DNA of 64,000 nucleotides from Curtobacterium sp. MCBD17_013 (GTDB lineage: Bacteria; Actinomycetota; Actinomycetes; Actinomycetales; Microbacteriaceae), in contig NZ_QKTU01000004.1 in NCBI RefSeq assembly GCF_003234565.1, positions 62,001-126,000 on the forward strand, in the 5' to 3' direction. The notes under the pieces were generated by a model. That model worked only from the letters and a program-made list of their open reading frames with translations. It had not been told where the DNA came from and ran no database searches. Below are positions 45,574 through 50,956 of the stretch, piece after piece; position 1 is the stretch's first letter; every line of letters starts with the position of its first letter. A program made the position numbers and the translations under genes.

Positions 45574-47553
45574 TCAGACCAAGCTGTCCCGCCAGGCCGC
45601 GTGGAGCTGAGCGAACCGGCCGGTACCCGCGATGAGGTCGTCCGGCGTGCCGTCCTCGACGATCTGCCCGTGTTCCATGACGAGCACCCGGTGGGCGATC
45701 GCGACCGTCGAGAGGCGGTGCGCGATGATCACGGCGGTGCGGTCGGCGAGCAGGGTCTCGAGACCCTCCTGCACGAGCCGCTCGCTCGGGATGTCGAGCG
45801 ACGCCGTGGCCTCGTCGAGGATGAGCACGCGCGGGTCCGCCAGGAACGCCCGGGCGAACGACAGCAGCTGCCGCTGGCCCGCCGACACCCGGCCACCGCG
45901 CTTGTTGACGTCGGTGTCGTACCCGTCGGGCAGCGCCTCGATGAACGTGTGGGCGCCGACGGCCTTCGCCGCCCGCTCGATCTCGGCCCGTGACGCCCCC
46001 GGCTTGCCGAGCGCGATGTTGTCCGCGACGGACCCCGAGAACAGGTACGCCTCTTGCGTGACCATGACGATCGCGCGCCGCATGTCCCGCGGGTCGAGGT
46101 CGCGCAGGTCGATGCCGTCGAGCCGCACGGAGCCCTGTGACGGGTCGTAGAACCGCGCCATGAGCTTCGCGAGCGTCGACTTGCCCGCGCCCGTCGACCC
46201 CACGAGCGCGATCGTCTGACCGGCCGGGATGTGCAGGTCGAACTCGGGGAGCACGACCGTCTCGGCGTTGTACGCGAACACGACGTCGTCGAAGTCGACG
46301 CGGCCCTTCGCCTGGGCGAGGTGCTGCGGCCGGACCGGGTCCGGCACGCTCGGCTCCTCCTCGAGCACGCCCGAGATCTTCTCCATCGCAGCGGACGCCG
46401 ACTGGTACCCGTTGTAGAACATCGCGAGCTGTTCGGCCGGGTCGAAGAACCGCCGGGCGTACAGGGCGACGGCGAGCAGGGCGCCGATCTCGAGCGAGCC
46501 ATCGACGACGCGGAACGCGCCGATGATGACGACCGCCGCGAGCGTCGCGTTGCCGATGAGCACGAGGCCCGGATCGAACGTCCCGAACAGGTTGAACACC
46601 TTGGCGTTCGCGGCGCGGTAGTCCTCGACGTACCCGGCGTACTCGTCGCGGTTGCGGGACTCCTTGCGGAACGCCTGCACCGCCCGGATGCCCGTCATGG
46701 TCTCGACGAAGTGCACGATCACCCGGGCGCTCGTGACACGCGTCGCCCGGAACAGCTGCTGCGAGCGCTTCTGGAACCACCGGGTCAGGAACCACAGCGG
46801 CACGAGGGCGATCGCGAGCACGAGGCCGGACGTCGGGTCGAGCGACACGAGCGCGATGGCGGTGAACACCATGTAGAGCACGCCCTGGATGAGCTGGTTC
46901 AGCCCGGAGTCGAGGAGTTCGCGGATCGAGTCGAGGTCGCTCGTCTGGCGCGAGATGATCCGCCCGGACGTGTAGGTCTCGTGGAACTCGAGGCTCAGAC
47001 GCTGGGTGTGCAGGAACACGCGCTTGCGCAGGTCGAGCAGGATCTTCTGGCTGATCTTCGCCGCGAGCACGGTGTACCAGGCGGTGAGCAGCGCGCCCGC
47101 GACGGCGACGACGATGTAGCCGGCCACCACGAGGTACGCGGGGAGCCAGTCCTGTCGGTGGAGCACCGACGGCAGCGCGCTGTCGATGCCGTACGCGATG
47201 AGGGTTGGACCGGCCACCTGCGCGCCGGTCGACACCACCACGACGATCGCGATCGTCCACAGGTCGCGCCGGAGCGGTCCGAGCAGCGAGCGCATGAGCG
47301 CGAGCGACCGACGCCGGAGCCGTCGGCTCTCGGCCTTCGTGAAGTGCTCCCGCTCCTCGCCGCGCACACCGCGCACGGTGATGGAGGCGGTGACCGGCTG
47401 CCCGTCGTCGGCCGCGGTGACGGCGGCGGCCGGGCCTCCCGGCTGTGCGGTGTCCGTGGCGGGCTGGGCCCGCTCCTCGAACTCGGTCTGGTACTCGTCC
47501 TCGGGCTCGCCGGGGGCGTCCGGCCTGGCCGACGTCCGCTGGGGGTCGCTCAT
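45574..47553 (-). CDS. ABC exporter half-transporter with canonical catalytic glutamate
   Basis: 659 residues: about 85 residues of cytoplasmic N-terminus, six TM helices, then an ATPase domain. Walker A is GSTGAGKST, the signature is a variant VSAGQRQ, and Walker B with its catalytic Glu is [13 protein letters not shown]. Together with the upstream gene it forms a heterodimer like TM287/TM288 or LmrCD. Substrate unknown; drugs, lipids or peptides are all possible. It overlaps the upstream partner by four bases (ATGA). Confidence 0.88.
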
Positions 47554-49361
47554 GCCAGTGCCTCCTCTCGCGCGGTCGCGTCGTCCTCGTCGAGCGAGGA
47601 GATGACGTAGCGGTAGTGGTCGTTCGTGGCCATCAGGTCGTGGTGCGTCCCGACGGCGGTGATGCGCCCGTCCTGCATGAGCGCGACCCGGTCGGCCAAC
47701 GTTACGGTGGAGGGGCGGTGCGCGACGATGAGCGAGGTCGTCTCGGCGAGGACGCGTCGGAGTCCCGCCTCGACCCGGGCCTCGGTGTCGACGTCGAGCG
47801 CCGACAACGGGTCGTCGAGCACGAGCACGCTCGGTCGGGCGGCGATCGCCCGGGCCAGTGCGAGCCGCTGCCGTTGCCCGCCGGACAGGCTCAGGCCCTC
47901 CTCGCCGACGCGGGTGTCGACGCCGTCCGGGAGCCGGTCGACGAACTCCGCCTGCGCGACGTCGAGCGCCTCGCGGAGCAGGGCCTCGGCCTCGTCCCCC
48001 GAGACGTCCGGGCGGCCGAGGAGCACGTTGTCCCGCACCGAGGCGCTGAAGAGCGTGGCGTCCTCGAACGCGACGCCGACCCGGTGCCGCAGTTCCTCGC
48101 GCGTGAGCTCGCGGACGTCGACACCGTCGATCGTGATCGAGCCGCCCGTGACGTCGTACAGACGCGGCACCAGGGCGAGCAACGTCGTCTTGCCCGACCC
48201 GGTGAGCCCGACGAGCGCCATCGTCTCGCCCGGCTGCAGGACGAGCTCCACCCCGTCGACGAGGTCCGGCGTGCCCGCGGGCGCGTCCTGGTAACGGAAG
48301 TGCACGTCGGTGAACGTCAACGCACCACGGGGGTCGGTGATCGTGCGCGGACGCTCCGGGTCCTGGATCGTGTTCTCGGAGTCCATGACCTCGAAGAACC
48401 GGTCGACCGCGGTCCGGGTGTCGAACGTCATCGACAGCAGGAAGCCGATGGACTCGATCGGGAACCGGAGGACCGCCGCTGCCGAGAAGAACGCGAACAG
48501 CTCCCCGACCGTCAGGTGGCCCTGCGACGCCAGCCAGATCCCGGCGAGCAGGCACAGTGCGAACGCGACGTCGGGCACGAGCAGGAGCCACAGCCAGATG
48601 CCGGCGATGGCCCGGGCCTTCTCGATCTCGGTGCCCCGGAGCTGCTCGGCCTGTTCGCTGAACTCGTCGAGCTTGTACCGGCCGCGGCCGAACGCCTTGA
48701 GCACGCGGATGCCGTGCACCGACTGCTCCACACTCGTCGCGAGGTCACCCACCTGGTCCTGGCTGCGCCGGGCGACGACCGAGTACTTGCGCTCGAACAC
48801 GAGGCCGTTGATCCAGATCGGGATCGACGCGACCATGAAGATGAGCGCGAGCAGCCAGCTCCACGTGAACAGCACGCCGAAGCCGACGATGATCGTGACG
48901 ATGTTGACGACGAGCAGCACGATGCCGAACGCCAACCAGCGTCGGATCAGGCTGAGGTCCGACACCGACCGCGACAGCAGCTGACCCGACTGCCACCGGT
49001 CGTGGAACGCGACCGGCAGGTCCTGGAGCTTGGCGTAGAGGGCGTTCCGCATGCGCGACTCGACGTACGTGCCCGGCCGGAGGACCAGGCGACGGCGGGC
49101 GGCGATCATGAGGGCCTCGAGCACCCCGAGGCCGAGCACCGCCAGGCCCGCGGGGACGATCTGGCCACGGTCGCCGGACTTCAGCGGCCCGTCGACCAGG
49201 GCCTGCAGGACGAACGGGATCGCGAGCGCGACGAGCGACGCGACCATCGCGGCGACCATGCCGAGCACGATGCGCCCGATCGCGGGCTGGACGTAGGGGT
49301 AGATCCGCGCGATGGCGCGGAAGGTGGACGGACGCGCTGCTGCAGCGGGCGTTCTCGACAT
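47550..49361 (-). CDS. ABC exporter half-transporter with degenerate ATP site
   Basis: 603 residues: six TM helices, then an ATPase domain. Walker [10 protein letters not shown] and the signature LSGGQRQ are intact, but after Walker B the catalytic glutamate is replaced by Asp ([12 protein letters not shown]). Its own Walker B pairs with the variant signature of the partner, giving one degenerate and one active ATP site, as in known heterodimeric exporters. It is preceded by a leader with a 29-codon ORF and hairpins. ATG at [11 protein letters not shown]. Confidence 0.88.
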
Positions 49362-49421
49362 GGGGAGACCTCATCGTCGAACCGGTCGGGACCGGAGTGC
49401 GGATTGATGCGACCTCCGACC

Positions 49422-49458
49422 CGTCGGGCGGGCCGGGAGGCGGGACCTCCGCCCGACG
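49422..49458 (-). other. hairpin in the leader of the ABC exporter operon
   Basis: Perfect arms CGTCGGGCGG (49422-49431) and CCGCCCGACG (49449-49458) with inner GGAGG/CCTCC, about 60 bases before the exporter start. A smaller hairpin GACGCC-GA-GGCGTC lies at 49502-49515. These could act as attenuator or ribosome-responsive structures. Confidence 0.5.
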
Positions 49459-49575
49459 TCATGGTGACGATGGGCGTGGCCGGGTGGGGCGGGCGGGGGC
49501 GGACGCCGAGGCGTCACGCGCCGCGAGCGGCGGACCGGTGACCCGTCGGCGGCGTGCTGGTCCCCGCGGGGGCGA

Positions 49576-49665
49576 CTAGCGGAACGTCGGTCCCTCGACG
49601 GACGGGGCGACGACTCCGAAGGCGTCCAGGCCGGCGGGAGCCAGGGTGCTGGTCATCGCGTTCAT
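49576..49665 (-). CDS. 29-residue leader or precursor peptide
   Basis: Reads MNAMTSTLAPAGLDAFGVV then APSVEGPTFR and stops with TAG. A GGAG lies six bases before the ATG. By my count 25 of 28 codons after the start end in G or C, as in real genes here, and a strong promoter reads directly into it. An in-frame ATG at 49686 would give 36 residues. It is followed by two hairpins and the heterodimeric ABC exporter. It could be a regulatory leader peptide (ribosome-mediated attenuation) or a small exported or modified peptide. No RiPP modification enzyme is nearby. I recognise no family. Confidence 0.5.
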   Translation of the reverse strand: MNAMTSTLAPAGLDAFGVVAPSVEGPTFR

Positions 49666-49745
49666 CGTCACTCCAGTCGTCGTCATCGTCACGCCGACCA
49701 CCGGGCCGCGCTGGTGGGGCGTGTCGAGGCCGGTCGGAGCCTCAC

Positions 49746-49775
49746 AGACTATTCGCAGCCGCCCTCAGGTCGCAA
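49746..49775 (-). promoter_or_regulatory. promoter of the leader peptide and ABC exporter operon
   Basis: Minus-strand TTGCGA (49775-49770), 18-base spacer, TAGTCT (49751-49746). Transcription would begin near 49739, about 75 bases before the peptide ATG. Confidence 0.65.
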
Positions 49776-49904
49776 CGAGGTCCGGCGTGTCGCCCTACTC
49801 GCGTTGCACCCGCCTGTCCTGCGGCGGTTCCGGCGCCTGCGAACGGCTGGGGACATACGCCTCCTGTAACCGCTCCCCGCATCACAAGCGACGGCCAAAG
49901 TCGT

Positions 49905-49910
49905 TATGCT
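49905..49910 (+). promoter_or_regulatory. -10 hexamer of the low-GC cassette
   Basis: TATGCT, six bases before the GTG at 49917, so the cassette appears leaderless. Confidence 0.55.
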
Positions 49911-49916
49911 CCCCCC

Positions 49917-50435
49917 GTGGCACGGGACGGCGACGCGGCGAAGCATGGCTATCGCGTTGGGAACCACGAACTTCACTTCGGCGTCCGTTTTTGGGTAGCC
50001 CTTTTCCTTGCCATAGGACTTGTCGCAATCGGCATGTACACCTCGCCGAGAAATCTCACGGCCGGAGTTCTGGTCGGCGTTGCCGGCGTGATTGGCGCGC
50101 TGCTTGGCGTTCTACTTGATATCACTCCTGTTTCGACGGACCGATCAGTTGAGGCTCGGAGCGCGATTCGCGCACTACACCGTTTGAGCCAAGATATTGA
50201 GAGCATCCAAGCACGGGTAACTCTGATCGCAGCAGAGCGCCTCACGCAGCGAGCCGCTATTCCGATTGCTCTTGTGTCAGAGGACCTGGAAGGCGTCCGA
50301 ACAGGCCTCTACTCTGCAATAGTCGAATGGGACCGGATTGCCCCCGGGTCGTCGAATGTGATCGAGGAAATTAGAACAGCCGGGAGTGAGTTGCTAGCGA
50401 AGCTCTCGAAGGAAGATGGCAGGAGCGAAGGTTGA
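49917..50435 (+). CDS. two-TM coiled-coil protein of unknown function (low-GC cassette gene 1)
   Basis: 172 residues. Two TM helices near the N-terminus (FWVALFLAIGLVAIGMY and LTAGVLVGVAGVIGALLGVL, about 25-75) are followed by a helical, probably coiled-coil cytoplasmic part of about 95 residues. I recognise no family. G+C content is far below the neighbourhood (32 of 60 bases in 50161-50220, against 47 of 60 in 51001-51060), and many codons end in A or T, so recent transfer is likely. The GTG start is fixed by a -10 hexamer six bases upstream. The stop overlaps the start of gene 2 (TTGA). Confidence 0.68.
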   Translation: MARDGDAAKHGYRVGNHELHFGVRFWVALFLAIGLVAIGMYTSPRNLTAGVLVGVAGVIGALLGVLLDITPVSTDRSVEARSAIRALHRLSQDIESIQARVTLIAAERLTQRAAIPIALVSEDLEGVRTGLYSAIVEWDRIAPGSSNVIEEIRTAGSELLAKLSKEDGRSEG

Positions 50436-50896
50436 CAGACGCACAGAAGGTTCAGGGCAAGGTAGCGGAAATCGTCAGCGATCGGGAGGTGATCTTGAAC
50501 CGGGGGGAACGAGACGGCGTCGAACAGGGAATGTACTTCGCCATCCTCGACCCCGACTTCGTCAGCGTGACGGACCCCGACAGCAACGAAGATCTTGGCG
50601 GTATCCGTCTCGTCAAGGTGGCGGTACAAGCCGTCGAGGTCGCCCCTCACCTCACCCTTGCTCGAACGTTCAGAACCCGAACCGTGAACGTAGGTGGTAC
50701 TGCCGCTGGTATTGGGTCCATACTCGCTGCAACACAGCCGCCGCGCTACGTCGAGCGTGTCGAGCGTCTGACGATCGACGAGAGCACCCGCCGCAAAATC
50801 GATCCGTCTGAGAGTGTCGTCGGGCGCGGGGATCCGTTCGAGGAGATCGACGAGGACGACGCCGAGGACATCAAATCCATCACTATTTGGCGGTGA
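50432..50896 (+). CDS. small beta-rich protein of unknown function (low-GC cassette gene 2)
   Basis: 154 residues, starting at a TTG (MTDAQKVQGKVAEIVSDREV) that overlaps the stop of gene 1; AGGAG lies upstream. The first 60 residues (GKVAEIVSDREVILNRG, then GVEQGMYFAILDP) have the pattern of a small beta-barrel like the C-terminal domain of FlgT, here without any flagellar gene. The C-terminus is acidic (EEIDEDDAEDIKSITIWR). Low G+C like gene 1. The two were probably acquired together and may work as a membrane protein with a soluble partner. Confidence 0.66.
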   Translation: MTDAQKVQGKVAEIVSDREVILNRGERDGVEQGMYFAILDPDFVSVTDPDSNEDLGGIRLVKVAVQAVEVAPHLTLARTFRTRTVNVGGTAAGIGSILAATQPPRYVERVERLTIDESTRRKIDPSESVVGRGDPFEEIDEDDAEDIKSITIWR

Positions 50897-50956
50897 ACTA
50901 CTTGCGCATTCCTCTGCCTCTTCCCCAGTAGTAGCAGCTCGAGCCCGATCCGCATG

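Follow-up and report, generated by a model that had tools for sequence, protein, structure and literature searches.

Our results suggest that the 29-codon ORF located upstream of an ABC exporter operon in the window (the whole stretch of 64,000 nucleotides of Curtobacterium sp. MCBD17_013 DNA that was analysed) belongs to a family-wide set of leaders of about 30 codons, and that it probably serves as a translation sensor attenuating this operon. The attenuation is likely to be ribosome-mediated, with a probable dependence on Rho; its molecular mechanism and inducing signal are what we infer from the sequences of the window and of its relatives. The preliminary description of this DNA had proposed an attenuation-type leader as one of two readings of the arrangement. 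This reading is supported here, and widened to the family Microbacteriaceae, because the promoter block, the Shine-Dalgarno (SD) sequence, the start codon and the length of the ORF are conserved, because the ORF is absent where the leader is short, and because the C-terminal part of the peptide is under constraint. By its sequence, the layout is similar to that of the bmrB leader of Bacillus subtilis, with a different termination signal. Literature searches did not retrieve any published description of this leader.

The leader and the exporter genes in the window

The minus strand of the window displays, in this order, a promoter-like pair, a 5' UTR, the leader SD, the 29-codon ORF, a gap, and two half-transporter genes. 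As read from the sequence, the pair is composed of a -35-like element TTGCGA (49770-49775) and, 18 bp further, a -10-like element TAGTCT (49746-49751), which is followed by GTGAGGCTCC, with a predicted transcript start near 49739. The 5' UTR (49666-49740) includes the SD GGAG (49671-49674), 5 nt before the ATG at 49665. The ORF itself (MNAMTSTLAPAGLDAFGVVAPSVEGPTFR, 49576-49665, delimited from its sequence and its relatives) ends with the TAG at 49578-49576, and 214 nt without any obvious gene separate this stop from the first ABC gene, whose SD, GAGG, is located at 49369-49372. The ORF and its GGAG are indeed present where they were first described, and the GC bias of the third codon positions is also confirmed (26/29, compared with 19/29 and 17/29 at the first and second positions, in a stretch with 75% GC). 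ORFs of at least 25 codons are common in the window, and this single sequence gives no more-than-chance signal for the ORF; its relatives do.

The first ABC gene (half-transporter A, minus strand, 47550-49361, ATG at 49361) encodes a protein of 603 aa with an LSGGQ signature and a degenerate Walker B (VLVLDDP), and the second one (half-transporter B, minus strand, 45574-47553) a protein of 659 aa with a canonical Walker B (VLILDEA) and a deviant signature, VSAGQ. The two genes overlap by an ATGA at 47553, which agrees with their initial description as coupled. ABC_membrane and ABC_tran are the sole domains above the Pfam cut-offs in both proteins. Because their ATP sites are asymmetric (DD and LSGGQ in A, DE and VSAGQ in B), A and B are classified by sequence as a heterodimeric type IV (B-family) ABC exporter, one degenerate ATP site being the typical asymmetry of heterodimeric exporters. 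Their bacterial PDB matches, which ranked below eukaryotic B-family hits, include TM_0288, YheH and the multidrug transporter chain 6raf_A; we take TmrAB and BmrCD to be the names of the complexes behind such bacterial matches.

Conservation of the leader in Curtobacterium

The leader element was matched in all the 66 Curtobacterium genomes searched (weakly for G002 in one search, clearly in others). In the 65 leaders that were aligned, GGAGTGACGATG, which comprises the SD and the start codon, is identical, and the ORF is open in every case, with a length of 29 to 61 codons. Frameshifts or stop codons in close relatives had been proposed as a refutation of the ORF, and none was met in this genus. 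In other genera, the usual leader SD is of the GGAGG type. The distance from the start of the ORF to the orthologous exporter gene that follows it is 257-552 nt (63 of the 65 Curtobacterium leaders, in which the gene start was found by pattern). In-frame GTG and ATG codons located further upstream were rejected as starts: a 1-nt deletion in four relatives (L055 and L057-L059) breaks the longer frame and spares the ORF, so that the start is the ATG at 49665. Between the ORF and the exporter gene, the tetranucleotide GCAA is repeated in tandem 5 to 7 times in L023, L043, L044 and L046, and the length of this repeat differs among Curtobacterium relatives.

The support for the promoter comes from conservation. 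The combination of TTGC or TTGT, a spacing of 17-18 bp and TA[GT]NCT was found by pattern matching in 63 of the 65 Curtobacterium leaders, and the block TA[GT]NCTGNA[AG]GGCT recurs across the family in front of the exporter ortholog. No promoter was called when 49300-49850 was scanned for a sigma-70 consensus; the TTGCGA-18-TAGTCT elements initially reported are therefore in place, and their qualification as strong is not retained. The block over the -10 element and the start (AGYCT-GNA-RGGCT; 49738-49750 in the window, and loci L103-L168) forms an imperfect dyad of 5+5 bp, which may serve as an operator or simply be a promoter/initial-transcribed signal. A promoter-defined regulon was rejected, as TAGTCTGTRAGGCT has only one occurrence in the window's own genome with at most one mismatch allowed.

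Distribution in the Microbacteriaceae

Outside Curtobacterium, the leader was traced via the exporter gene and not by DNA-level searches, whose matches outside the genus (42 genomes, E 1e-5 to 1e-3) were short and were not taken as homologs. An ortholog of the exporter is present in 151 of 179 Microbacteriaceae genomes, representing 73 of 85 genera (E<=1e-170). We examined 67 loci from 40 genera, corresponding to the best matches together with a hand-picked spread among these 151 genomes (66 of the loci are outside Curtobacterium, and exporter starts were picked automatically). A short SD-led leader ORF precedes the exporter ortholog in 58 of the 67 loci and in 34 of the 40 genera. Fifty of these ORFs come from one scan (promoter block with mismatches allowed, followed by an SD-led ORF), which had called 51 before the doubtful V-start ORF of L154 was left out; the other eight come from a looser scan, where the promoter was not recognised and which has no shuffle control of its own. 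At the remaining nine loci (L113, L118, L126, L144, L154, L156, L162, L164 and L165), the promoter is less than 200 nt from the exporter gene and there is no ORF. Both states are observed in genera g37 and g41.

Among the 67 family loci, 49 have a leader of 195 nt or more, and in all 49 the promoter is followed by an SD-led ORF, compared with 0.5 of 49 in dinucleotide shuffles. The length of the ORF is also narrowly distributed (median of 30 codons and coefficient of variation, CV, of 0.22 in the 50 family loci), whereas simulations in which stops are as frequent as in these GC-rich leaders gave a CV of 0.94, the lowest of 20,000 being 0.54. Indeed, ORFs of 25-36 codons account for 37 of the 50 observed and for 6 of 50 simulated. 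The gap between the ORF and the exporter gene ranges roughly from 80 to 390 nt.

A strict scan was also applied to 80 named loci taken from public genomes; it called the ORF in 64 of them, and two were too short to judge. Among other genera, the ORF was called in all the loci of Curtobacterium (31/31), Leifsonia (5/5), Frondihabitans (3/3), Okibacterium (2/2) and Rhodoglobus (2/2), and in part or none of those of Frigoribacterium (6/8), Glaciihabitans (2/4), Salinibacterium (1/2) and Schumannella (0/2). On inspection, two loci missed by this strict scan do hold an ORF (L233 from Schumannella and L236 from Frigoribacterium), and two others show none (L237 and L278). That other families of the order possess the same leader was rejected, the promoter block and the ORF being found in 0 of 21 loci (L176-L196; L197 offered no anchor), compared with 7/7 for the promoter and 5/7 for the ORF in seven further family loci. 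One of the loci from other families, L185, contains an isolated SD-led ORF of 18 codons.

Termination signals and proposed mechanism

The untranslated stretch following the ORF in the window (49362-49575, minus strand) is C-rich and G-poor and represents a candidate Rho-loading region. Its (C-G)/(C+G) is 0.20, compared with 0.09 in the ABC gene of the window, and its last 215 nt (0.19) rank at the top of 21 upstream regions of the window, as defined by crude gene calls. In the family, C outnumbers G behind the ORF in 50 of 50 loci, with a mean (C-G)/(C+G) of 0.26. The same measure gives 0.02 for the region ahead of the promoter, -0.11 for the 5' UTR and 0.12 for the ABC gene, whose coding region also has more C than G in 50 of 50 loci. 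In Curtobacterium, the gap is positive in 63 of 63 leaders with a mean of 0.14, hardly above the 0.13 of the ABC gene. Because the C-rich, G-poor stretch resembles a Rho-loading site, we favour Rho-dependent attenuation with moderate confidence, a rut-like composition being in itself weak evidence for Rho. An intrinsic terminator was rejected, as no hairpin-plus-T site was detected in the leader of the window or in 63 Curtobacterium leaders, and as the weak hits in family leaders (4 of 51) are at unrelated places, without a shared U-tract terminator.

In the mechanism that we propose, the ribosomes of an unstressed cell would finish the leader ORF and leave, the C-rich RNA would be exposed, Rho would load on it, and most transcripts would end before the exporter gene. 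Drugs that target the ribosome, or a scarcity of aminoacyl-tRNA for the Thr/Ala/Ser-rich codons of the ORF, could slow ribosomes within it; the Rho-loading stretch would then be masked, either by the slowed ribosome or by an alternative pairing of the RNA, and the polymerase would reach the exporter genes. Against the Rho model, stalls early in the ORF would require an additional masking step. It also counts against our explanation that the loci without the leader evidently manage without it.

RNA structure and exposure of the exporter SD

The same elements could also be arranged as a translational attenuation of the erm/cat type, where the leader RNA would hide the ribosome-binding site of the exporter and a stalled ribosome would free it, transcription being uncut. 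We regard this explanation as unlikely. The leader ORF, the compensatory changes in the hairpins of Curtobacterium and the lack of a shared U-tract terminator are in agreement with it, and toiL from Escherichia coli is described as acting via both SD masking and Rho (PMC12121999). However, in 50 family leaders the pairing of the exporter SD does not exceed that of shuffles (unpaired fraction of 0.493 vs 0.477, p 0.14), and its masking was rejected as a family-wide rule. In the window, moreover, a modelled ribosome on the ORF barely changes the predicted exposure of this SD, from 0.36 to 0.33-0.52. The gap after the ORF is slightly more unpaired than shuffles (p 0.008; 50 family leaders).

The compensatory changes concern four hairpins in three parts of the Curtobacterium leader, among them one in the 5' UTR (35 relatives counted, window's species left out). 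Their covariation scores exceed those of all 500 shuffles, two of the hairpins being scored jointly; the counts of double-change pairs are not above shuffles in two of the analyses (5' UTR and post-stop hairpins), where 108 and 207 of 500 shuffles reach them. These structures were read from one sequence, and the counts used 35, 31 and 32 of the 65 Curtobacterium sequences, excluding near-identical rows, six divergent rows (that of the window, L043, L054, L055, L057 and L058) and, for two of the counts, a few more. Since the species of the window was dropped, these compensatory changes do not bear on the hairpins of the window itself. The two hairpins initially proposed between the ORF and the exporter (49502-49515 and 49422-49458) do fold in isolation. 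They are not conserved elements, other Curtobacterium carrying different ones. The strong hairpin GCGUGACGCCUCGGCGUCCGC (49498-49519, minus strand; -14.0 kcal/mol, z -3.9) showed no counterpart when the relatives were aligned. The long GC hairpin (49422-49458, minus strand) folds as 49420-49460 with -24.6 kcal/mol (z -1.5), and no terminator-like site was called on it. A weak hairpin after the stop (49556-49578, minus strand; -7.2 kcal/mol, z -0.42, not significant) is a possible counterpart of the conserved post-stop hairpin predicted in relatives. Taken as a whole, the leader of the window does not fold more stably than its shuffles (z 0.1), and an Rfam match to ar7 was rejected as chance (24 bits for a cut-off of 60).

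In Curtobacterium, the segment GUGGGG of the ORF matches the loop UCCCAC of the post-stop hairpin in 50 of the 55 leaders having this motif; a change on both sides keeps the match in two others, a one-side mismatch is present in three, and the motif is absent from 7 of 62. This pairing could be a switch. The corresponding segment of the window, GAGGGACC, has a poorer predicted pairing with CCCGC, and the pairing is therefore not a family rule. The 5' UTR of the window is predicted to fold so that the bases at the very beginning of the transcript, GCUCCG (49740-49735), pair with the SD region of the ORF, UGGAGU (49675-49670), and initiation on the leader ORF itself may be controlled in this way. 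In other genera, the transcript mostly starts with GGCUG, which does not match the leader SD region.

Constraint and composition of the leader peptide

Codon changes were counted on the tree of the exporter gene, using 57 distinct Curtobacterium sequences and single-step changes. Codons 2-24 have a dN/dS of 0.83 and do not present three-base periodicity, the other two frames giving 0.95 and 0.92. In contrast, the codons from 25 onward (10 columns) have a dN/dS of 0.34 with an excess of third-position changes (p 2e-7), the other frames giving 2.39 and 1.33. This excess was recovered in the shorter ORFs (p 2e-5, 33 sequences) and was not significant in the longer ones (p 0.33, 22 sequences). The dN/dS of the exporter gene is 0.18, in a count slightly different from that of these single-step ORF figures. 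An earlier count, in which codon changes of several bases were scored as non-synonymous, gave 1.54 for the ORF and the same 0.18 for the exporter; the ORF value is superseded by the single-step counts. The synonymous change along the peptide that had been expected of a peptide-encoding ORF is thus observed from codon 25 onward and not in codons 2-24. From this pattern, the frame of the ORF is probably translated, and the sequence of its peptide appears only loosely held.

A passive role of the ORF, whose translation would stabilise the mRNA or hold its 5' end open without any sensing, seems doubtful to us. It would agree with the drift of the peptide between genera, and the sensing with which it dispenses is putative. 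Nevertheless, neither a fixed length nor an in-frame C-terminal constraint would be required by such a role, and re-initiation at the exporter gene is unlikely across the gaps that follow the ORF.

It is improbable that the ORF encodes a product peptide (a signal, a bacteriocin or a RiPP) exported by the adjacent transporter, as suggested in the preliminary description of a peptide with its own exporter. The linkage to the exporter is conserved, and some Curtobacterium copies of the ORF stand in protein databases as "hypothetical protein". However, no common peptide sequence was seen between genera when the ORFs of the family were compared, and the only two codon differences in the ORF between the window and its relative of the same species are both non-synonymous. 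In addition, the exporter proteins have no Pfam match to a C39 peptidase above the cut-offs, and the selected flanking genes that were scanned did not include any RiPP-type enzyme (their matches are an importer permease, a solute-binding protein, a ROK regulator, a dehydrogenase, purH, DUF6350, a RecQ-like helicase and an mpaB-type oxygenase). Finally, a chance ORF in GC-rich DNA with rare stop codons, which the abundance of such ORFs in the window and the ordinary fold of the leader would allow, is refuted by the comparative data (fixed length, shuffle control, in-frame constraint, and invariant SD and start).

Returning to the attenuating leader, the length of the ORF is fixed and its sequence is free, from which we infer a sensor of ribosome position, and not a product peptide or one that arrests ribosomes by its sequence. 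No conserved arrest motif was seen in the leader peptides across genera. What the 49 family peptides do share is a gradient of composition, with Thr early, Val, Ala and Gly in the middle, and Arg and Pro towards the end. At residues 2-6, Thr reaches 42%, and its codon ACA makes up 14% of the codons there, compared with 0.4% in the ABC gene. Ala, Ser and Thr together make up 39.5% of the family ORFs, the two alternative frames giving 30.7% and 16.7%. In the first ten residues of the ORFs they amount to 49%, compared with 25% in the N-terminus of the exporter. The macrolide R-x-R motif was rejected as a family rule, R/K-x-R/K being present in 21 of 49 non-Curtobacterium peptides for 17.3 in shuffled ones (P 0.14); it is present in 53 of the 56 distinct Curtobacterium peptides outside the species of the window, whose own peptide lacks it. 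A wider proposal, which we put forward only tentatively, is that the drug-exporter leaders of the whole family gauge ribosome traffic by position and not by peptide sequence: a uORF of about 30 codons, with its Thr-rich start and its Arg/Pro-rich end, would time the loading of Rho on C-rich RNA, with no intrinsic terminator and no conserved arrest peptide.

Comparison with known systems

In the model of TnaC-type leaders, a short ORF is followed by a Rho-dependent site, which is masked when a ribosome is retained close to the stop codon. Tryptophan and a particular arrest sequence are both required by TnaC, whereas no shared arrest motif was seen in the family leader peptides. The nearest described system is the bmrB leader of bmrCD in Bacillus subtilis, where, as described, induction by 50S-targeting drugs needs translation of the leader, rare codons raise basal read-through, and an intrinsic terminator within the ORF is combined with an antiterminator (PMC4191407). 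As in that account of bmrB-bmrCD, a small SD-led ORF is located here between a promoter and a heterodimeric ABC exporter pair, and the ACA codons of the Microbacteriaceae ORFs are comparable with the rare codons reported for bmrB. In contrast to bmrB, no shared intrinsic terminator was found, and B. subtilis belongs to a different phylum.

Among actinobacterial uORFs, that of whiB7/wblC links translation state to the transcription of a drug-resistance function and uses a Rho-independent terminator, according to a review (PMC11550727). The leaders studied here are likewise actinobacterial uORFs; unlike in whiB7/wblC as reviewed, no such terminator was found in them, and they directly precede exporter genes rather than a transcription factor gene. 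Indeed, no WhiB-family regulator is present downstream of the window's leader, the downstream gene being an ABC half-transporter. The uORF toiL of topAI-yjhQ in E. coli is described as sensing several classes of ribosome-targeting drugs through premature Rho-dependent termination; on the same account, it masks a downstream SD, its downstream gene is a toxin-antitoxin system, and it does not contain Ala, Ser or Thr codons (PMC12121999). Compared with toiL as described there, the family leaders do not show family-wide SD masking, and their ORFs are rich in Ala, Ser and Thr codons. A survey based on terminators (PMC2965389) reported that candidate attenuators are numerous ahead of ABC transporters and that intrinsic terminators are few in Actinobacteria, and this scarcity, as reported, may explain why the leader was not listed in it.

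If our reading is true, a family of plant-associated and environmental genera would control an intrinsic ABC exporter via a ribosome-position sensor, which would be easily overlooked because its peptide is not conserved. According to PMC12121999, chloramphenicol is reported to stall ribosomes preferentially after Ala, Ser or Thr; together with the Thr/Ala/Ser-rich early codons of the ORFs, this preference would predict phenicol-like inducers. The 58 natural variants and nine natural absences could indicate which feature of the uORF matters (length, codons of the start region, composition of the end, or downstream RNA), and the nine short-leader loci, with the two genera showing both states, offer natural contrasts for function.

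Upstream of the leader, the ORFs tested within 49900-50950 did not give any Pfam match. This stretch of about 1 kb, located between purH and the leader, has a GC content of about 56-65%, compared with 70-75% in its flanks, and is perhaps an insertion.
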